Below the pieces are notes generated by a model that was not told where the DNA came from, made no database searches, and saw only the letters and a list, made by a program, of their open reading frames with translations. A program made the position numbers and the translations under genes. DNA of 41,983 nt from NCBI GenBank assembly GCA_018667855.1, contig JABIRL010000367.1, positions 1 to 41,983 of the forward strand, read 5' to 3'. This DNA comes from Rhodospirillaceae bacterium (GTDB lineage Bacteria; Pseudomonadota; Alphaproteobacteria; GCA-2731375). Below, one piece after another: positions 17,375-30,628 of the stretch. Positions within the stretch are counted from its first letter, which is position 1, and each line of letters starts with the position of its first letter.

Positions 17375-19063
17375 ATGAGCCAAGATAAATCTGACAAAGA
17401 GAGCGATAGGCTTTCGCCCGAAACCCTGAGTGCCCAAGCCTTGGGCCGGGTCGACCCGGTCACCCGCGCCCTGGTTCCATCCCTGCATCCTTCGACCACG
17501 TTCGAGCGGGACGCGGACGGCGGCTACAGCTCCGGCCGCGGCTACAGCCGGCCGCACAATCCGACCTATGACGAGGCCGAGGATCTTTTGGCGGCGTTGG
17601 AAGGCGGCCACGACTGCCTGTTGTTCGCATCCGGCATGGCGGCGGCAAATGCAGTCTTTCAGGCACTGCTGCCCGGCGACCATGTGGTGGCGCCCAAGGT
17701 GATGTATTGGGCCCTGCGCAAATGGCTGGTGGATTTCGCCGTGTCCTGGGGATTGGAGGTCGAATTCGCCGATACCCATGATCTCGACGCCCTGGCCGCC
17801 GCCATGCGGCCGGGCAAGACCAAGCTGGTCTGGCTGGAAACGCCTGCCAATCCCACCTGGCAAATTACCGATATCAAGGCGGCGGCGAATATCGTCCACG
17901 ATGCCCGGGCCCGTCTGGCGGTGGACAGCACCGTGGCCTCGCCCGTGCTGACCCGGCCCATTGAATTGGGTGCTGATCTGGTGGTGCACTCGGCCTCAAA
18001 ATATCTGAACGGTCATGGCGATGTGCTGGCCGGCGCTATTGTCGGGGCGCGCGACGACGGTTTTTGGCAGCGTATCCGGGCCTGGCGGCGGGACGGCGGC
18101 GCCATGTTGGGAACGTTGGAGGCCTGGCTGCTGCAGCGGGGCATGCGGACCTTGTTCGTCCGCGTCGCCCGCTGTTCGGAAAGCGCCCTGGCCGTGGCCA
18201 GCCATTTCCAGGACCACCCGCGTATTTCCCACGTGCTTTACCCCGGCCTGCCGGATCATCCCGGCCACGACATCGCCGCCCGTCAGATGCAGGGCGGCTT
18301 TGGCGGCATGCTGTCCCTGCGCATTCGGGGCGGGGAGGCGGCTGCCATGGCGGTGGCGGCGCAGGTGAAAGTATTCAAGCGGGCAACATCCCTGGGCGGC
18401 GTGGAAAGCCTGATCGAACATCGCGCCAGCATCGAAGGCCCGGCAACTCCGGTGCCCGATGATCTGTTGCGTCTGTCCATTGGCTTGGAAAATGTCCACG
18501 ACCTGATCGCGGATCTGGAGGCGGCGCTGTCGAACCTCCCCGAAGAGATACTGGCGGATGCGCCTGAATTGGAGGCGGCGCCGTTGTCGCCAATCGAACA
18601 GGTGTTGGAGGATCACGTATCGGCCATGGTGCGCGAACGCGGCGGCGACCTTGTGGTCCGCTCGTTTGACGACGGGGTTCTGGTGCTGGGTATGCAGGGC
18701 TCCCCCGGCGCGTCGATCCCATTGGCGACGACCATCGGCAACACCATTCGCCACTATCTGCCCCATGTCCAAGAGGTGCGAATTGACTGCGGAACCGGCG
18801 ACGATGTGCAGGGGCTGCTGGATACCTTGATCAATCCCGCGGTCGCCGATCACGGTGGTAAGGTTGTCCTGGACCGCGTCGATGGTGATGCCGCCTTCCT
18901 GCGCTTTGAAGGCGGTTGCCAGGGTTGCGCCATGGCGGAATTGACCCTGCGCCAGGGGATTGAGCCGATTCTAGTCCGGGAGGTCGCGCAGATTGTCGCC
19001 GTGATTGACGAAACCGATCATGGCGCGGGTAACATGCCCTACTACAAGACAAAAAAGACGTGA
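17375..19063 (+). CDS. Fusion: Cys/Met-metabolism PLP enzyme (cystathionine gamma-synthase-like) + degenerate NifU domain + NifU/NfuA domain
   Basis: A 562-residue three-part protein. Residues about 20-395 are a complete fold-type I PLP enzyme of the cystathionine gamma-synthase/lyase family. It shows YSRPHNPTYDEAEDLLAALEGG, the phosphate-site SGMAAANAV (86-94), SASKYLNGHGDV with the Schiff-base lysine K209, and SLGGVESLIEHRASIEG. Residues about 405-472 resemble a NifU C-terminal domain whose CxxC is replaced (GSPGA, with S443 and A446). Residues about 485-557 are a second NifU/NfuA domain with an intact GGCQGC (C515, C518) and the family-like end NMPYY. NfuA-type domains carry and hand over [4Fe-4S] clusters; the PLP part could act on Cys or another sulfur amino acid. 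A Rieske oxygenase alpha subunit starts 48 bases downstream. A role in Fe-S or sulfur supply for that enzyme is inference. Confidence 0.85.
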   Translation: MSQDKSDKESDRLSPETLSAQALGRVDPVTRALVPSLHPSTTFERDADGGYSSGRGYSRPHNPTYDEAEDLLAALEGGHDCLLFASGMAAANAVFQALLPGDHVVAPKVMYWALRKWLVDFAVSWGLEVEFADTHDLDALAAAMRPGKTKLVWLETPANPTWQITDIKAAANIVHDARARLAVDSTVASPVLTRPIELGADLVVHSASKYLNGHGDVLAGAIVGARDDGFWQRIRAWRRDGGAMLGTLEAWLLQRGMRTLFVRVARCSESALAVASHFQDHPRISHVLYPGLPDHPGHDIAARQMQGGFGGMLSLRIRGGEAAAMAVAAQVKVFKRATSLGGVESLIEHRASIEGPATPVPDDLLRLSIGLENVHDLIADLEAALSNLPEEILADAPELEAAPLSPIEQVLEDHVSAMVRERGGDLVVRSFDDGVLVLGMQGSPGASIPLATTIGNTIRHYLPHVQEVRIDCGTGDDVQGLLDTLINPAVADHGGKVVLDRVDGDAAFLRFEGGCQGCAMAELTLRQGIEPILVREVAQIVAVIDETDHGAGNMPYYKTKKT

Positions 19064-19111: not shown

Positions 19112-20368
19112 ATGACATTATCGACCGTGGATGATTTGAATGAACCATTGAAATGGCCCGAGGGCGGGATCACCCGCATCCCCTATCGTCTGTATGTGGA
19201 TCCTGAAATTTATGCGCTGGAGCAACAGCGCATCTTTCGCGGCCCGGTTTGGAATTTTCTCTGCCTGGAGATCGATATTCCCAATGCCGGCGATTTCAAG
19301 ACGTCCACGGTTGGTGAAATCCCGATCATCGTCACGCGGGACGAAAATGGCGATGTCCATGCCATGGTCAACCGCTGTGTTCACAAGGGCGCTCTGGTCT
19401 GCCTCAAGGAGAAGGGCAATGCCAAGCTGCTGAATTGCATCTACCATTCCTGGTCCTACGATCTGCAGGGGCGCCTGAAGGGTGTTGCCTTTCGCAACGG
19501 CCTGAAGGGCAAGGGCGGATTGCCGGACGATTTCGACGCCAGCCAGCATAGCCTGGAGCCGTTGCGGGTTGAGTTATTCTGCGGCCTGGTATTCGGCACG
19601 TTTTCGGAGGAGACGCCCTCGGCCGAGAGTTATTTCGGCAAGCCCATGTCCGATTTCATGCGGCGCAATCTGGACCGGCCCTTGAAACCCTTGGGTATGC
19701 ATAGCCAGATCATTCACAACAATTGGAAGCTTTATGCCGAGAACGTGCGCGATTCCTATCACGCGACCTTGCTGCATACCTTTTATTCCACCTTCAAGAT
19801 CAATCGATTGGACATGGATGGCGGCATAATCCTGGCCGAGGATAAATGGCACAGCATCAGCTACGCCAAGCGCGCCACATTCGACGAAGCGCCGGAATAC
19901 AAGCAGGAGAAAATCCATTCCGTGCAATACGACGACAGCTTGGCCGGACCCCAACTGCTGAATTCCTGGCCCGAGTTCGAGGATGGCATAACCCATTCGA
20001 TCCAGGCGCTGTTTCCCAACCTTGCCGTACAATTCACCCTCAATTCCCTGGCCGTGCGGTTCTTTGTACCGCGTGGCATAGACAAGACGGAATTGTTCTG
20101 GTTCTACGTGGGCTATGAACGGGATGACGAGGCCCAGACCGCCATGCGGGTGATGCAGGGCAATCTGACCGGCGCGTCGGGGCTGGTGTCCCTGGAGGAT
20201 GGCTGCATCAATGAGTTCGTGCAACGGGGCACGAAGGGCAGCGCGGATGGAATGGGTCTGGCGGAGATGGGTGGACGGGAGGTTGAATCCTCCGATCAAA
20301 GCCGCGCCACCGAAACCGCGATCCGAGGTTTCTGGACCGGCTATCGCCGGATCATGGATATTGCCTGA
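19112..20368 (+). CDS. Rieske-type aromatic-ring-hydroxylating dioxygenase, alpha subunit
   Basis: A 418-residue catalytic subunit of a two-component Rieske non-heme iron oxygenase. The [2Fe-2S] Rieske site is visible as CVHKG and CIYHSW (Cys-x-His ... Cys-x2-His) in residues about 88-115. The mononuclear iron site is DSYHATLLH near residue 214 (D-x2-H-x4-H, with a distal acidic ligand expected in the C-terminal half). The sequence around NNWKLYAENVRDSYHATLLHTFYSTF resembles anthranilate/benzoate-type dioxygenases. The start follows GAAAGG. It is one base upstream of the beta-subunit gene and 48 bases downstream of the PLP-NifU fusion. The ferredoxin/reductase partner is not in the window. 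The substrate is probably an aromatic or heteroaromatic acid, by family. Confidence 0.92.
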   Translation: MTLSTVDDLNEPLKWPEGGITRIPYRLYVDPEIYALEQQRIFRGPVWNFLCLEIDIPNAGDFKTSTVGEIPIIVTRDENGDVHAMVNRCVHKGALVCLKEKGNAKLLNCIYHSWSYDLQGRLKGVAFRNGLKGKGGLPDDFDASQHSLEPLRVELFCGLVFGTFSEETPSAESYFGKPMSDFMRRNLDRPLKPLGMHSQIIHNNWKLYAENVRDSYHATLLHTFYSTFKINRLDMDGGIILAEDKWHSISYAKRATFDEAPEYKQEKIHSVQYDDSLAGPQLLNSWPEFEDGITHSIQALFPNLAVQFTLNSLAVRFFVPRGIDKTELFWFYVGYERDDEAQTAMRVMQGNLTGASGLVSLEDGCINEFVQRGTKGSADGMGLAEMGGREVESSDQSRATETAIRGFWTGYRRIMDIA

Positions 20369-20369
20369 C

Positions 20370-20846
20370 ATGGCGGGCGAGATGACGGCGCGGACGGAAA
20401 TCGAGGATTTCATCGTTTCCTACGCCCACGACATTGATGACGGCGCGGTTGAGCGGTGGCCCGGCTATTTTGCCGAAGACGGGATTTATCAGATCATCAC
20501 GCGGGAGACCTTCGAGGCAGGGCTGCCCCTGGGCATCATGTATTGCGAGGGCCGGGGTATGATGTCGGATCGCGTCAAGGCCATGCAGACGGCGAATATC
20601 TACGAGGCGCACACCTATTGCCACATGCTCGGACGCAGTCAGATCGGCTCCGGCGACAACGGCCGTTATGGCGTCCGTACCAATTTCAACATTGTCCGTA
20701 CCATGCAGGATGGCGGCAGCAAAATGTTCGCGGTCGGCAAATATCTCGACGTCATCGAAATTCAGGATGGTCGGCCCCTGTTCAAGGAGCGCAGGGTGGT
20801 ATTGGAGTCCCGGCGGGTTGATATTCTTTTGGTCTATCCGTTGTAG
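20370..20846 (+). CDS. Aromatic-ring-hydroxylating dioxygenase, beta subunit
   Basis: A 158-residue protein of the SnoaL/NTF2-like cone fold used by Rieske dioxygenase small subunits. Family features are IEDFIVSYAHDIDDGAVERWPGYFAEDGIYQI, then GIMYCEGRGMMSDRVKAMQTANIYEAH, and the end RVDILLVYPL. The subunit stabilises the alpha3beta3 hexamer. The ATG at 20370 is one base after the alpha stop; an ATG at 20382 is an alternative. A longer reading into the alpha gene is not credible. Co-transcribed with alpha. Confidence 0.9.
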   Translation: MAGEMTARTEIEDFIVSYAHDIDDGAVERWPGYFAEDGIYQIITRETFEAGLPLGIMYCEGRGMMSDRVKAMQTANIYEAHTYCHMLGRSQIGSGDNGRYGVRTNFNIVRTMQDGGSKMFAVGKYLDVIEIQDGRPLFKERRVVLESRRVDILLVYPL

Positions 20847-24757: not shown

Positions 24758-25960
24758 TCAAAAGCGTATCGGTATGTTCCTTGGCCCGCGGACCTGACCG
24801 CCGGCCCAGGTGACGGCATCGGGGTCGGAGAGTTCGAATTCCGGTATCCGTTCCATCCAGACCCGCAGCGCCACATCCATTTCCATGCGCGCCAGGTTTG
24901 AACCTGCGCAGCGGTGAATACCGACACCAAAGGCGATATGACGATTTTTCTCCCGATCCAGCACCACTTCGTCGGCGCGATCAAAGGCTGCCGGGTCGTG
25001 GTTGGCGGCGGGGAAGTTCATCAACACCCGGTCGCCTTCCTTGAAGGTGACATCGCCGACCTCGATATCCTTTTGGCAGACCCGGGCCATGGTGACCGGG
25101 GAGTAAAAGCGCAGCAATTCTTCGATCGCGGTTGGGAACAGGTCCGGCTCGTTGACCAGACGGCTGCGGTCATCGGGACTGCCGGCCAGATGCCAAATGG
25201 CCGAGCCGATGGAGCTCCACGTGGTATCGATACCCGCGATCAGCAGCAGGTTGCACATGCCGATGACGGTTCGATCCGTCACGGGTTCACCTTCCAGTTC
25301 ACAAGCGATCAATTGAGAAATTAGATCGTCTCCGGGATTTTGCCGCCGCTCCTGCACCAGATCACTGAAGAAATTAAGAATGATGCTGCGATATTTAAGT
25401 CGAATTTCCGGATCCGTCAGGCCAATTTCAAGTATGCCGCGAACCCATTCGACAAAATCGGCCGATCGGTTGGGATCAATTCCCATCATGTTGGCGATCA
25501 CCCGGGGCGGGATTTGCTGGGCATACTGCACCGCGCCGTCGCAACTGCCTTTGTCGATGAATTCGTCAATCAATCCGTGACACAGGGCCTCCGTATCGGG
25601 CCGATGCAGGGCGACGGCTTTCGGTGTGAAAAACGGCAATATCATCCGGCGGATGGGTATCTGCGTCGGTGGGTCCGAGGTAATGGGTGGGGCGGCGACC
25701 TCCGCATGTTCGGAGTCGGGATCGAGCTCCTGCGGCGGCACCACCAGGGGTTCTTTCGAGGACAGTTCCGGCACCATGCGGACAAAGGCCTGCATATCCT
25801 CGTACCGGGTTGGCAGCCAACTGCCGCCCCAGCGGTCCGTATGGGCGATGGGACATCCTTCGCGCAATTCATTCCAGACCGGCAGGGGATCGCGCACATA
25901 GCCGGGATCGAAGATATCGTAGTCGGTTTTCCAATCGTTTACCGGGGGTGTCTTGGCCAT
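24758..25960 (-). CDS. Cytochrome P450
   Basis: A 400-residue soluble bacterial P450. The heme-ligand loop is FGVGIHRCAG with C351. The I-helix oxygen-activation motif is AGIDTT (A242-T247). The K-helix ExxR is E281-R284 (ELLR). It begins with a typical class I N-terminus and has no membrane anchor. The start at 25960 follows GGAGG. Monooxygenation of a small hydrophobic or cyclic substrate is expected, using ferredoxin and reductase supplied from elsewhere, since none is in the window. It is the last gene of a tight minus-strand unit PhyH - HyuA - HyuB - P450 and starts 19 bases after the hyuB stop, so it probably acts on the same compound or a product of the hydantoinase. Confidence 0.95.
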   Translation of the reverse strand: MAKTPPVNDWKTDYDIFDPGYVRDPLPVWNELREGCPIAHTDRWGGSWLPTRYEDMQAFVRMVPELSSKEPLVVPPQELDPDSEHAEVAAPPITSDPPTQIPIRRMILPFFTPKAVALHRPDTEALCHGLIDEFIDKGSCDGAVQYAQQIPPRVIANMMGIDPNRSADFVEWVRGILEIGLTDPEIRLKYRSIILNFFSDLVQERRQNPGDDLISQLIACELEGEPVTDRTVIGMCNLLLIAGIDTTWSSIGSAIWHLAGSPDDRSRLVNEPDLFPTAIEELLRFYSPVTMARVCQKDIEVGDVTFKEGDRVLMNFPAANHDPAAFDRADEVVLDREKNRHIAFGVGIHRCAGSNLARMEMDVALRVWMERIPEFELSDPDAVTWAGGQVRGPRNIPIRF

Positions 25961-25979
25961 GGAAAGTGAACCTCCAGAA

Positions 25980-27680
25980 TTAGGATTTGATGCCGTAGTC
26001 GCGCCGGGCGGCCTCTTCGCTGACGTAGCCGTTCTTCAGATCGTCGGCCAGGCTGGCGGGGTCCCGCTCCGATGCCGGACCATAGCCGCCCGAACCGGGA
26101 ACTTCAAAGACAATGCGGCCATCCGCCGGCACGGTAAATGCGCCTTTGGACAAAGGATGGCGAATACCGCCATCGGGATCTTCCAAGGAAATCCGCATGG
26201 GCGAGCCGGCCTGACCACCGGCCAAACCAAAGGGCGGCGATTTGCTGCGTTCGCAGCAGACCGCGCCGCGCGTGACATTTCCCAGCACCCGCCAGACCCG
26301 GCGGGCGCCGCAACCGCCCCTGAATTGCCCCGCGCCGCCGCTGTCGGTCAGCACCGAATATTCCTCGACCCGGACCGGGAAGCTCATCTCCAATACCTCG
26401 ATGGGGGTGTTCATCATGTTCGAGATACCGGCGGCGACACAGTTGATGCCGTCCTTGGTGGGACGGGCGCCAAAGCCGCCCTTGATGGATTCATAGCTCA
26501 CATATGGCTCGCCGCTGCGGTAATCGATCCCGCCCAGGGTCAGCACCGAGGACGTGCCTTGGGAACACGCCATGACCCGCTCGGGCAGGAATGAATACAA
26601 CGCGCCGAACAACATGTCCGATACCCGATGGGACATTTCATGATTGGCATAGACCACCGGTGCCGGAAAGGATGCATTGACCACCGAGGCTTCCGGCGCG
26701 GTCACCGTGATGGCGCGCCAACAGCCCGAGTTGGGCGGGATCATGCCGTTGGGATCGACCACCATCTTGACCGCCGTATAGATCCCCGATGCGGTCACCG
26801 ACAGCGGCGCGTTCATGGGCCCGGCCACTTGCGGGTCGGAGCCGGTGAAATCCACCGCCAGGGTATCCCCCGATTTGATTGCGTGCATGCGGATGGTGAA
26901 GGTTTCATCATCCTCCTCGCCGGGCTCCAAAATCCCGTCGCCGTCGCAAAAATCCTCGAACGAGCCTTCGCCGTCGGGCAATTCGGCGAGGAATTTGCGC
27001 ATCATGATCTCGGAATAATCCATCACCTCGACCATGATCCGGCGCAGGGTATCGACGCCGTATTTCTCGGCCAATTCCGATAGCCTTGCACTGCCCCGGC
27101 GATTTGCCGCGATCTGGGCATTCATGTCGCCCCGGCGTTCGTCCGGCGTGCGCACGTTGGTGAAAATGATCGCGTCCACGCCCTGGTTCAAAACCCCGGC
27201 CTCGTACAGGCGGATGGGCGGCAGGCGCAGGCCCTCGCCAAACACTTCCGTGACGGCGCCGTAGCTGCCCGGCGTGGCACTGCCGATGTCCGGCCAATGG
27301 GCCCGCACGCAGGCAAAACCCAACAGATCACCTTTGTGGAAGGACGGCGAGACGATGTTGACGTCCGGCAAGTGTGAGCCGCCAAAGTAAGGGTCATTAT
27401 GGATGAAGACATCGCCTTCCTCGAACGTGCCAAAGGCCTGGATCACCGCCTTCACCGCGTCCGGCATGGAGCCAAGATGGATCGGCAGATCGGGACCTTG
27501 CGCGATCATCTCTCCGTCCGCATCGAACAGCCCGCAGGAATAATCGCCCGCGACTTTCAGCAGCGGCGAATAGGCCGTCTTGGCCAATACGATCTTCATC
27601 TCCTCGGCCGCCGCGTATAGAGCGTTCTTGACCACTTCGAACGTGGCCGCATCGGTCCTTATGGCAGTGGCATCATTCAT
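25980..27680 (-). CDS. hyuB: Hydantoinase/oxoprolinase/acetone carboxylase family, subunit B
   Basis: A 566-residue HyuB-type subunit. It carries the family landmarks AAEEMKIVLAKTAYSPLLK, the long conserved GDVFIHNDPYFGGSHLPDVNIV near residue 90, RAHWPDIGSATPGSYGA and NSGCWRAITVTAPEASVVNA. The tail reads GRIVFEVPGSGGYGPASERDP. With HyuA it forms an enzyme that hydrolyses a cyclic amide (N-methylhydantoin, 5-oxoproline or similar) with ATP, or carboxylates ketones in the acetone carboxylase branch. The start overlaps the hyuA stop by eight bases and follows GGAG. No third (gamma) subunit of acetone carboxylase is present, which favours a hydantoinase/oxoprolinase reaction. Confidence 0.92.
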   Translation of the reverse strand: MNDATAIRTDAATFEVVKNALYAAAEEMKIVLAKTAYSPLLKVAGDYSCGLFDADGEMIAQGPDLPIHLGSMPDAVKAVIQAFGTFEEGDVFIHNDPYFGGSHLPDVNIVSPSFHKGDLLGFACVRAHWPDIGSATPGSYGAVTEVFGEGLRLPPIRLYEAGVLNQGVDAIIFTNVRTPDERRGDMNAQIAANRRGSARLSELAEKYGVDTLRRIMVEVMDYSEIMMRKFLAELPDGEGSFEDFCDGDGILEPGEEDDETFTIRMHAIKSGDTLAVDFTGSDPQVAGPMNAPLSVTASGIYTAVKMVVDPNGMIPPNSGCWRAITVTAPEASVVNASFPAPVVYANHEMSHRVSDMLFGALYSFLPERVMACSQGTSSVLTLGGIDYRSGEPYVSYESIKGGFGARPTKDGINCVAAGISNMMNTPIEVLEMSFPVRVEEYSVLTDSGGAGQFRGGCGARRVWRVLGNVTRGAVCCERSKSPPFGLAGGQAGSPMRISLEDPDGGIRHPLSKGAFTVPADGRIVFEVPGSGGYGPASERDPASLADDLKNGYVSEEAARRDYGIKS

Positions 27681-29754
27681 TGTCGTTCTCCATAAGAATG
27701 TGACCTGTGGGGTTCATGCGGGCCCGCCAGCCGGGCGGAATGACGATTGTGGTATCCACGGCTTCGATCACCGCCGGTCCGACAACTTCGGTCCCTATAC
27801 CGAGGCGCGCGCAGTCGTGAACGGCGCAATCGCATCGGCCCCCCTGGCGGAACCAAACGGACCGGCTGCCTTTCAGGGACGAGCCCTCCGTCTTTCCGGT
27901 ATAACTCAATTCAATATTCTCGAACCGGCCAATGGCGGTCACACGCAGGTTGACCAGCTGTATGGTTTCATCCGGGTTGTCATGACCATAGGTTTGGCGG
28001 TGTTTCTCATGAAACAGGCGGGCCAATTGATCCAGGGTTTCCGTTGTCACCGCGCCGGTTTGGGCCGGGATCGTCAGCTCGTAGGCTTGCCGGCCATAAC
28101 GCAGATCGGCGGCCCGCTCCAAAACCCAATCCTGTTCGGGGATTTTCGCAGCCCGCAACATCCGTTGCGCGGAAGCCTCCATCTCGCTGAAGGCGGCCGA
28201 CACGGCATCCGTATCCGCCTGGTCCAGGGAAATGAAATGCGTCTTCACATAGTCCCGTTTTAAATCCGTCGCCACCAGCCCCAGGGCCGAGAAACCACCC
28301 GGTATGGGCGGGACGATCACTTCCCGTATACCCAGTTCAGCGGCAAGTTCGGCGGCGTGCATGGGCCCCGCGCCGCCAAAGGCAACCAGACTGAATTCCC
28401 GGGCGTCATGGCCGCGCTCCACCGAAACGATGCGCAAGGCCTCGGCCATTGCCGCATTGACCACGTTCAGGACCCCCGCCGCCGCCTCGTCCACGCCAAT
28501 GCCCAGGGGGCTGGCCAAATGTTCCTCAATCGCCGTCATGGCCTTGTCGGCCCGGATTGCCAGACGTCCGGCCAGCAATGCTTCCGAATCCAAATAGCCC
28601 AGGGCCAGATTGCAGTCGGTGACAGTGGGCCTGGTGCCGCCGGCGTCATAGCAGACCGGTCCCGGCTCGGCGCCGGCGCTTTGCGGCCCGACCTTCAGGG
28701 CGCCACCGGGATCGATCCAGGCGATGGAGCCGCCTCCGGCGCTGACCTCGGCCAAATCGATCACTGGAACCCGGATCGGATGGCCGGTGCCATTCATCCA
28801 GCGGTTGGCGTTGCCGTCGCCGCCCACTTCGTACTCGGACGTGGTTTCAACCACGCCGTCCTTGATCAGACTGGCCTTGGCCGTGGTGCCGCCCATATCG
28901 AAGGATAGTAAATTTGGTTTGTCCAGTTGCCGGCCGATCATGGCGGCGGCGATGACGCCTGCGGCGGGTCCGGATTCGATAGCCATGGCCGGCATTTTCA
29001 GCCCTTCGCCGACATCGAACACCCCGCCAGACGAACCCATGACATATAATCCCGGCAGCCCCATTTCCCCCGTCGCACCCTCCAGACGGCGCAGATAGGA
29101 TTCCAGTATGGGCCCCACGTAGGCGCAGACAGCGGTGGTCGAGGCCCGTTCGAATTCGCGAATTTCCGGCAATACCTCGGATGACAAAAATACCGGGATA
29201 TGGGGCAGGGCGGCCCGCAGTTTCTCGCCAATAATGCGTTCATGGACATCGTTCAGGAACGAGAACATCAGGGATACCGCGATGGCCTCGATCTCATTGT
29301 CCTTGGCGAAGGCGATGACGGCGTCGATATCCGCTTCATCAAGGGAGGTGACAACATCGCCCGCGGCATCCAGCCGTTCATCGACTTCCAGGCGGCAATA
29401 GCGCGGGATCAGCAGGCCGGGCGCGTCCTGGAACATATCGTACAGGCTGGAACGGGAGGATCGCCGCAGCTCCAACACATCGCGGAATCCCTTGGTGGAG
29501 ACCAGCATGGCGTTGGCGCCCTTGCCCTCCAGTATGGCGTTGGTGACCACGGTTGTCGCATGGGAGAGCAGGGAGACATTGCTCGCGGCGATATCGTGCT
29601 CCCCTAGGGCGATCGTCAGGGCCTGGACCACGCCCTGGCCGAAATCACGGGGGGTGGTGGGAACCTTGGCAATGCCGATCTGGCCGGTTTCCTCGTCCAC
29701 CAAGGCGACATCCGTAAATGTGCCGCCGATATCCACGCCTACACGCCAACTCAT
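27673..29754 (-). CDS. hyuA: Hydantoinase/oxoprolinase family, subunit A
   Basis: A 693-residue ATP-binding subunit of the actin/hexokinase-like fold. Phosphate-1 motif is VGVDIGGTFTDVALVDE at the N-terminus and phosphate-2 is LSFDMGGTTAKASLI near residue 280. Other family segments are LLSHATTVVTNAILEG, YVGPILESYLRRLEG, SSGGVFDVGEGLKMPAMAIESGPAAGV, and AFGGAGPMHAAELAAELGI. Start at the ATG at 29754, nine bases after GGGAG; the longer frame overlaps the upstream gene. It lies 34 bases after the PhyH-type gene stop and overlaps hyuB, so it is in the four-gene unit. The N-methylhydantoinase versus oxoprolinase choice cannot be made from sequence. Confidence 0.92.
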   Translation of the reverse strand: MSWRVGVDIGGTFTDVALVDEETGQIGIAKVPTTPRDFGQGVVQALTIALGEHDIAASNVSLLSHATTVVTNAILEGKGANAMLVSTKGFRDVLELRRSSRSSLYDMFQDAPGLLIPRYCRLEVDERLDAAGDVVTSLDEADIDAVIAFAKDNEIEAIAVSLMFSFLNDVHERIIGEKLRAALPHIPVFLSSEVLPEIREFERASTTAVCAYVGPILESYLRRLEGATGEMGLPGLYVMGSSGGVFDVGEGLKMPAMAIESGPAAGVIAAAMIGRQLDKPNLLSFDMGGTTAKASLIKDGVVETTSEYEVGGDGNANRWMNGTGHPIRVPVIDLAEVSAGGGSIAWIDPGGALKVGPQSAGAEPGPVCYDAGGTRPTVTDCNLALGYLDSEALLAGRLAIRADKAMTAIEEHLASPLGIGVDEAAAGVLNVVNAAMAEALRIVSVERGHDAREFSLVAFGGAGPMHAAELAAELGIREVIVPPIPGGFSALGLVATDLKRDYVKTHFISLDQADTDAVSAAFSEMEASAQRMLRAAKIPEQDWVLERAADLRYGRQAYELTIPAQTGAVTTETLDQLARLFHEKHRQTYGHDNPDETIQLVNLRVTAIGRFENIELSYTGKTEGSSLKGSRSVWFRQGGRCDCAVHDCARLGIGTEVVGPAVIEAVDTTIVIPPGWRARMNPTGHILMENDNE

Positions 29755-29788
29755 ACCGCTATCTCCCGGAAAAACTGTTGCTGGAAAC

Positions 29789-30628
29789 TTAGCCGTTGCC
29801 CGGGCCGGCGGCAACGTTCGGGACATAGGATTGTTTGGTGAAATGTTCCTGATCCTGGCTGGAGAATTTCAGGCCGGCCTGTTTGACGGCCTCATCCCCC
29901 ACCCTGCCCAAGGGTACGAAGGAGCGGTCATCGCCGGCGACCAGGGCATCATTGGTGATGGCGTTGTAACAAATGATCAGGGTCCAGCGCCGATTGTCGG
30001 ACAGGTTCTTGTCGGAACGGTGCAGCATGTTGCTATGAAAAACCAGGACGTCGCCTGGCTCCAGCGCCGGCGCCACGGTTTCATGGGCGGCGAGAATATG
30101 TTTCATGCGCTCCGGGTCGGCTTCGTTCTGTTTATCAGTTAGGGGCACATGATCAATGCGGCCCAGCTTGTGCGAACCCTTAACCAGTTGCAGGCAGCCG
30201 TTGTCCCGATCAGCGCGGTCCAGGGCGATCATGCAGCTCAACATATCCGGGCGCAGGCAGCCGTTGTAGTACCAATAGCCATAGTCCTGATGCCATTCCC
30301 AGGCCCCGCCCGCGCGAGGCTCCTTGGCGGTCAGCTTCGATTGGAAATGATAGACTTCTTCCCCGATCAACGTTGTCGCCGTATCCACCATGCGGTCACA
30401 GCGCGCCGCCATGCCGTAGACGCTGTCGCCGGCCCGGTTCCACAAACTGATCCGGGTGCCGAAACCCTCCTGATCCGGCCGGATCAGGGAATGGGCGGCT
30501 ATGGCCGGATCCTCCTCCATGGCGCGGCGCAGCAGGTCGATTTCCTCGCCGTCAAATAAGCCGCGCAGGACGACAAAGCCGTCTTTTTCATAGTCTGCCT
30601 GTTGCTCTGGGGATAGTTGGAAAGGCAT
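29789..30628 (-). CDS. Phytanoyl-CoA dioxygenase (PhyH) family Fe(II)/2-oxoglutarate oxygenase
   Basis: A 279-residue non-heme iron oxygenase with a double-stranded beta-helix core. The proximal iron ligands are H113 and D115 in WHQDYG. The distal His is H203 in FHSNMLHRSDKN, and R213/R214 (NRRW) can bind 2-oxoglutarate. WALDRADRDNGCL-type text after the HxD (ALDRADRDNGCLQLVKGSHK) is typical of PhyH. It hydroxylates an aliphatic or cyclic substrate and is cytoplasmic. It is the first gene of the PhyH - HyuA - HyuB - P450 unit and is divergent from the homocysteine methyltransferase gene. Ectoine hydroxylase and many catabolic enzymes share this fold, so the substrate is open. Confidence 0.9.
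   Translation of the reverse strand: MPFQLSPEQQADYEKDGFVVLRGLFDGEEIDLLRRAMEEDPAIAAHSLIRPDQEGFGTRISLWNRAGDSVYGMAARCDRMVDTATTLIGEEVYHFQSKLTAKEPRAGGAWEWHQDYGYWYYNGCLRPDMLSCMIALDRADRDNGCLQLVKGSHKLGRIDHVPLTDKQNEADPERMKHILAAHETVAPALEPGDVLVFHSNMLHRSDKNLSDNRRWTLIICYNAITNDALVAGDDRSFVPLGRVGDEAVKQAGLKFSSQDQEHFTKQSYVPNVAAGPGNG

Follow-up and report, generated by a model that had tools for sequence, protein, structure and literature searches.

The fused gene and its parts

The window, that is, the whole stretch of 41,983 nucleotides that was analysed, carries a gene encoding a PLP enzyme and two NifU domains in a single chain, followed by two oxygenase genes. The relevant features are:

17375..19063, + strand: fused gene of 562 amino acids, PLP enzyme, degenerate NifU domain and NfuA-type NifU domain in one frame; same frame in 13 genomes
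17423..18529, + strand: Cys/Met-metabolism PLP enzyme domain, residues 17-385 (Pfam PF01053, 2.6e-107; best Foldseek match 8sf4, TMt 0.93)
17999..18001, + strand: codon of K209, the PLP-binding lysine (K in 13/13 fusions and 22/22 near standalone rows)
18386..18388, + strand: T338 codon, in the position that Glu339 occupies in the human cystathionine gamma-lyase (T in 13/13 fusions, Glu in the five solved relatives shown)
18587..18787, + strand: degenerate NifU domain, residues 405-471, CxxC deleted (phmmer alignment to 1veh and 2m5o with a four-residue gap at CTSC; predicted model)
18806..19006, + strand: intact NifU domain of the NfuA type, residues 478-544 (Pfam NifU; best PDB match by sequence 2z51)
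18917..18928, + strand: CxxC cluster motif, C515 and C518 (in 13/13 fusions)
19112..20368, + strand: large subunit of a Rieske oxygenase, adjoining the fusion, a conserved neighbour in the genus
20370..20846, + strand: oxygenase small subunit, start taken from the ORF (Pfam Ring_hydroxyl_B, 6.3e-8; NCBIfam AndAd, 8.8e-41, below cut-off)

The PLP domain matches PF01053 with 359 bits (cut-off 27) over profile positions 2-380 of 381. The class V aminotransferase family PF00266 also matches, with 21.9 bits (cut-off 21.5), over residues 89-211; given the PF01053 score over residues 17-385, we rejected an IscS/SufS-type cysteine desulfurase. No Pfam match to an N-terminal A-type carrier domain was found in the fusion, the PLP domain being there instead. 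The predicted model of the full-length protein (pTM 0.76, linker pLDDT ∼61) does not firmly give the arrangement of the domains.

The first-pass annotation had read here one 562-residue frame with a PLP enzyme (K209), a first NifU domain without CxxC, and an intact NfuA-type domain (C515, C518). The open reading frame and the Pfam domain search confirm the first of these, the gap at CTSC relative to 1veh and 2m5o the second, and the CxxC of all 13 fusions the third. It had also considered that the tail might fail to match NifU by HMM and that the frame might be broken elsewhere; the tail does match NifU in Pfam, and none of the 13 genomes found with the fusion has a break in the frame.

Distribution, origin, and selection

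Within the order (one family), the fusion is present in 10 of 15 genomes, namely, in nine of the eleven genomes of the window's own genus and in G011 from a sister genus. A draw of 385 genomes of the class yielded one further fusion genome, G317. A scan of 84,980 species genomes returned 12 fusion loci, of which ten had already been counted and two were new, UBA2966 (L118) and B21D1T1 (L119), bringing the total to 13 genomes. All 12 fusion records from this collection are metagenome-assembled and bear the name Rhodospirillaceae, Alphaproteobacteria or Proteobacteria.

All fusions group together as a single clade, supported at 100/100, in the tree of the PLP part (42 rows, 29 of them standalone) and likewise in the tree of the NifU tail (25 rows, 12 of them three-domain Nfu proteins). 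The 29 standalone rows comprise 22 near relatives (21 different, as L022 and L049 are the same protein), four middle ones (L034-L037), and three distant paralogues (L003-L005), with L033 left out. Alignment A3 (37 rows) contains the 13 fusions, 17 of the 29 standalones (all but L004, L005, L021, L027, L030, L031, L032, L034, L035, L049, L055, and L085), and seven of the 12 three-domain Nfu tails; alignment A4 (18 rows) contains 11 of the 13 fusions and the same seven tails. In four pairs of own-genus fusions, dN was 0.05-0.07 at dS of 0.55-1.05 for the PLP part, and 0.12-0.25 at 0.59-2.29 for the NifU tail. As dN is well below dS in all four pairs, both parts are under purifying selection.

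The unbroken frame in 13 genomes, the catalytic lysine and the CxxC in all of them, the single origin, and the selection mean that the fusion is not an assembly artefact. It is real, rare, conserved, of single origin, and built from known kinds of components. As far as our literature searches could tell, the architecture is new.

The NifU tail and the three-domain Nfu proteins

The window's genome also encodes a 294-residue protein (L007) composed of an Nfu_N domain, a CxxC-less NifU domain, and a live NifU domain (Pfam, alignment). In the alignment, the entire tail of the fusion is homologous to this protein (residues ∼110-294), and Nfu_N is matched by Pfam in L007 and not in the fusion. TIGR03341 from NCBIfam matches the NfuA-type NifU domain of the three-domain relative below the cut-off. 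Since the tail matches the three-domain Nfu of the same genomes, the fusion resembles an Nfu carrier with the N-terminal domain replaced. In the simplest history, a standalone PLP gene would have replaced the Nfu_N part of a three-domain Nfu, once. We consider this structural and evolutionary account, based on sequence comparison, very probably correct. As a separate case of swapping Nfu parts, in G030 (L080:7380-8438) Pfam finds Nfu_N joined to a membrane protein of the DUF2189 type.

Three-domain Nfu proteins are encoded in all 11 own-genus genomes and in 12 of the 13 fusion genomes, the exception being G011. An ATP-grasp gene of the L-amino-acid-ligase type follows the Nfu gene in 11/11 own-genus genomes and likewise in G012, G021, and G030:

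L007:1180-3341 (own genome); L071:7537-9837; L075, L076, L077-L079, L081: three-domain Nfu gene, then ATP-grasp ligase gene

In G030, which has no fusion, the pair closes an operon with genes for an Rrf2-type regulator, SufB, SufC, SufD, SufS, SufU, and more SUF-type genes (assigned by eye). In G317 (L120:2115-5725) and G043 (L072:5333-8854), the two are separated by a radical SAM gene of the CUAEP/CCAEP-tail type (above the cut-off of NCBIfam NF040546). The two three-domain Nfu copies of G055 have no ATP-grasp partner. In G011, where no three-domain Nfu was found, the fusion itself stands directly before the ATP-grasp gene. Our literature search found no paper joining three-domain Nfu and ATP-grasp ligase in Alphaproteobacteria.

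Relatives and site residues of the PLP part

Standalone relatives of the PLP part are common in the class, with 56-69% identity to it; matches at E ≤ 1e-140 occur in 64 of 385 class genomes, four fusion genomes among them, and the window's genome has its own standalone relative (L002, 64% identity). At L033 and G048:C18:27674-29932, two PLP enzyme domains of this family share one 791-residue open frame.

Residues Y57, R59, Y111, R115, D184, K209, T338, S339, and R366 are found in all rows read, that is, in 13 fusions and 22 near standalones (21 different), and S206 in 13/13 fusions and 18/22 near standalones. Thus, the eight PLP-site residues (Y57, R59, Y111, R115, D184, S206, K209, and R366) are kept in all fusions. 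Among the cysteines of the PLP part, C81 alone is fixed across the 13 fusions. The best NCBIfam model, NF005871, scores 385.6 bits at a cut-off of 513, and the 25 models listed, of 49, are all below their cut-offs.

At the place where the five solved relatives shown have a pair of glutamates (E59/E339 in the human enzyme), 13/13 fusions have G56 and T338; compared to the same relatives, the loop after H349 is five to eight residues shorter. The lack of the pair and the missed NCBIfam equivalog cut-off led us to reject a cystathionine gamma-lyase or synthase proper. According to a paper on the Toxoplasma gamma-lyase, the E59/E339 pair has been proposed to decide between gamma- and beta-elimination; the paper also reports that replacement of human E339 by a hydrophobic residue yields more H2S from cysteine (PMC6073527). 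PDB entry 5eig is described as human gamma-lyase E59T/E339V, engineered for cysteine depletion. From these reports and the absence of the pair, we infer that the PLP part is not a cystathionine gamma-lyase but a lyase with a cysteine-type substrate. The loss of the pair is not specific to cysteine lyases, as the near standalones of the same subfamily share it (T338 in 22/22, no Glu at 56) with no NifU part. Methionine gamma-lyases generally lack the pair as well.

Proposed function

The fusion may be an Nfu-type Fe-S cluster carrier that, in a single event, received a PLP carbon-sulfur lyase instead of its N-terminal domain. The PLP domain would beta-eliminate a cysteine-type substrate (L-cysteine, cystine or other S-substituted cysteine), giving off sulfide or persulfide in the vicinity of the C-terminal CxxC; there a cluster would be held between two chains, to be handed over to clients. 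The CxxC-less NifU domain could be a spacer or a dimerisation or docking module. That the PLP domain may free sulfur from such a substrate beside its own carrier domain is the reading we favour, tentatively and at somewhat short of an even chance. There are partial precedents: C-DES, a C-S lyase, is reported to take part in ferredoxin cluster formation and so provides a case of a lyase feeding a cluster (PMC8300815), and Nfu proteins that combine a live domain with a dead one have been described (PMC3721309).

Of 16 genomes tested, 15 have a SufS-type gene; the fusion genomes covered were the 11 other than UBA2966 and B21D1T1, and 10 of these have it. Therefore, the fusion would be a side route beside SufS, not a replacement for it. 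As nearly all fusion genomes have both a SufS-type gene and a three-domain Nfu, there is no evident need for a second sulfur route.

It is less likely, though still a serious possibility, that the PLP domain acts on another thio-amino acid (e.g., S-conjugates), while the role of the NifU domains is limited to binding or repairing clusters in the vicinity of the released sulfide, the two sharing a chain and working in separate pathways. A hint of work on S-conjugates comes from the standalone relative, which by eye adjoins glutathione-S-transferase-like genes in at least four of the 15 standalone loci listed (L049, L052, L053, and L055), three of these four own-genus, the gene listings for L094 and L047 being incomplete. 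Moreover, at 17 positions all fusions agree on a residue that is rare (≤20%) among the near standalones. Seven of these positions (49, 50, 52, 56, 60, 61, and 113) lie a short way along the sequence from the site residues Y57, R59, and Y111; hence the substrate may have changed. On the other hand, the fusion arose once, has long been retained, and is under selection in both parts, which suggests that sharing one chain matters and argues against separate pathways.

A bolder reading is a self-contained sulfur donor and carrier, in which a gamma-family PLP lyase, belonging to a different subclass from IscS/SufS, would build clusters on its own Nfu from a cysteine-type substrate and iron, making the protein a scaffold independent of any cysteine desulfurase; we regard it as rather unlikely.

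By analogy with E. coli NfuA, whose degenerate N-terminal domain is reported to serve substrate recognition (PMC3721309), the PLP domain, standing where the three-domain relative has Nfu_N, could be a recognition or assembly module: its oligomer would gather the carrier domains and dock them on clients, the chemistry being incidental. This seems improbable, as all eight PLP-site residues checked are kept in all 13 fusions, unlike the dead domain of NfuA.

Gene neighbours and the Rieske oxygenase

In all nine own-genus fusion genomes, a Rieske gene is located 3' of the fusion, on the same strand and within 3.2 kb. The gap is 48 bases in the window, the same as given in the first-pass annotation, 26 in G008, 40 in G006, 43 in both G005 and G009, and 321 in G002, as measured via a 141-base overlap of two contigs. 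The interval in G002 (L042:1-279, L124:4060-4253) holds a short element with ends resembling inverted repeats on visual inspection. In G003, G004, and G007, the gap is 3,124-3,171 bases, with nitrile hydratase genes in between:

L040:10488-13511; L041:10504-13549; L043:10871-13897, other strand: nitrile hydratase genes (alpha; N- and C-type pieces of beta; assigned with Pfam in the L040 copies)

Near the oxygenase, window positions 24758-29826 encode a cytochrome P450 (Pfam), a caprolactamase-beta-like protein (below cut-off), and a hydantoinase-like frame, which suggests a catabolic island.

Elsewhere the two genes come apart. In G010, the Rieske gene (89% identity) is surrounded by the same genes, but the fusion is absent. 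G012 also encodes the enzyme (75%), and no fusion turned up anywhere in its genome; in G011, the Rieske gene and the fusion are on different contigs. In G001, the Rieske gene is cut by the contig start, so the fusion missing there may reflect an assembly gap. Inspection by eye showed no oxygenase near the fusions of G317 and UBA2966, which have dehydrogenases and other genes beside them; in B21D1T1, the fusion is likewise beside dehydrogenases and others, and a Rieske-domain protein is encoded ∼5.9 kb away on the other strand. The whole-genome Rieske search covered the fusion genomes other than UBA2966 and B21D1T1. No Fe-S assembly genes were seen by eye beside the fusions except for the ATP-grasp gene of G011, several contigs being short and some neighbours unannotated.

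Hence, the link to the Rieske gene is real but local. The first-pass annotation had suggested a dedicated maturation factor for the adjacent oxygenase, to be weakened by a scattered genomic context. The context proved half scattered, because the pairing is conserved in 9/9 own-genus genomes, yet elsewhere the Rieske gene occurs without the fusion (G010, G012), and the fusion has other contexts (G011, G317, UBA2966, and B21D1T1). The close same-strand pairing speaks for a dedicated Rieske maturation factor, and these exceptions make such a role quite improbable.

Least probable of all is a reverse flow, in which a cluster on the NifU part would be a sacrificial sulfur source for a sulfur-adding reaction at the PLP domain: the family includes sulfhydrylases (NCBIfam list), and Nfu proteins resupply clusters to sulfur-inserting enzymes (LipA and NfuA), but by eye no acceptor-activating gene is present at the fusion loci, and none of the 25 models listed of 49, O-succinylhomoserine ones among them, gave a sulfhydrylase equivalog above its cut-off.

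Comparison with known systems

The sulfur of biological Fe-S clusters is thought to come mainly via class V cysteine desulfurases. With a natural chain of a gamma-family PLP enzyme and Nfu, one can ask directly if a different lyase is able to supply a cluster carrier in cis. Judging from its sequence, one protein, carried by a small group of uncultured bacteria, may both supply sulfur and hold the cluster. From the fusion it is also clear that Nfu carriers can have their N-terminal part exchanged.

The closest system is the NFU1-type, three-domain Nfu, whose dead and live NifU domains are homologous end to end with the fusion tail; the fusion differs in that a PLP enzyme of 385 residues stands where the other has Nfu_N. 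E. coli NfuA similarly has an extra domain ahead of a C-terminal NfuA-type NifU, but this N-terminus is described as a degenerate A-type carrier (PMC3721309), whereas that of the fusion is a PLP enzyme whose site is intact. Plastid NFU1-3 (Arabidopsis CnfU, 2z51, the best Foldseek match) also have one live and one CxxC-less NifU domain per chain (PMC3721309). The domain order is reversed, the dead domain being first in the fusion, and plant NFU1-3, as described there, have no PLP enzyme. The same paper reports an algal NFU form fused to a nuclease-type domain (PMC3721309).

On the enzyme side, C-DES is a PLP lyase as well, releasing sulfide from cyst(e)ine with a role in ferredoxin cluster formation; unlike the fusion, it is described as a monomer with no carrier attached and counted as a further class of cysteine desulfurase (PMC8300815). 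Cystathionine gamma-lyase and synthase (Thermobifida 8sf4, Mycobacterium MetB 3qhx) share the fold and the PLP site with the fusion, which lacks their Glu pair, has the loop after H349 shortened by five to eight residues, and carries the added NifU tail.
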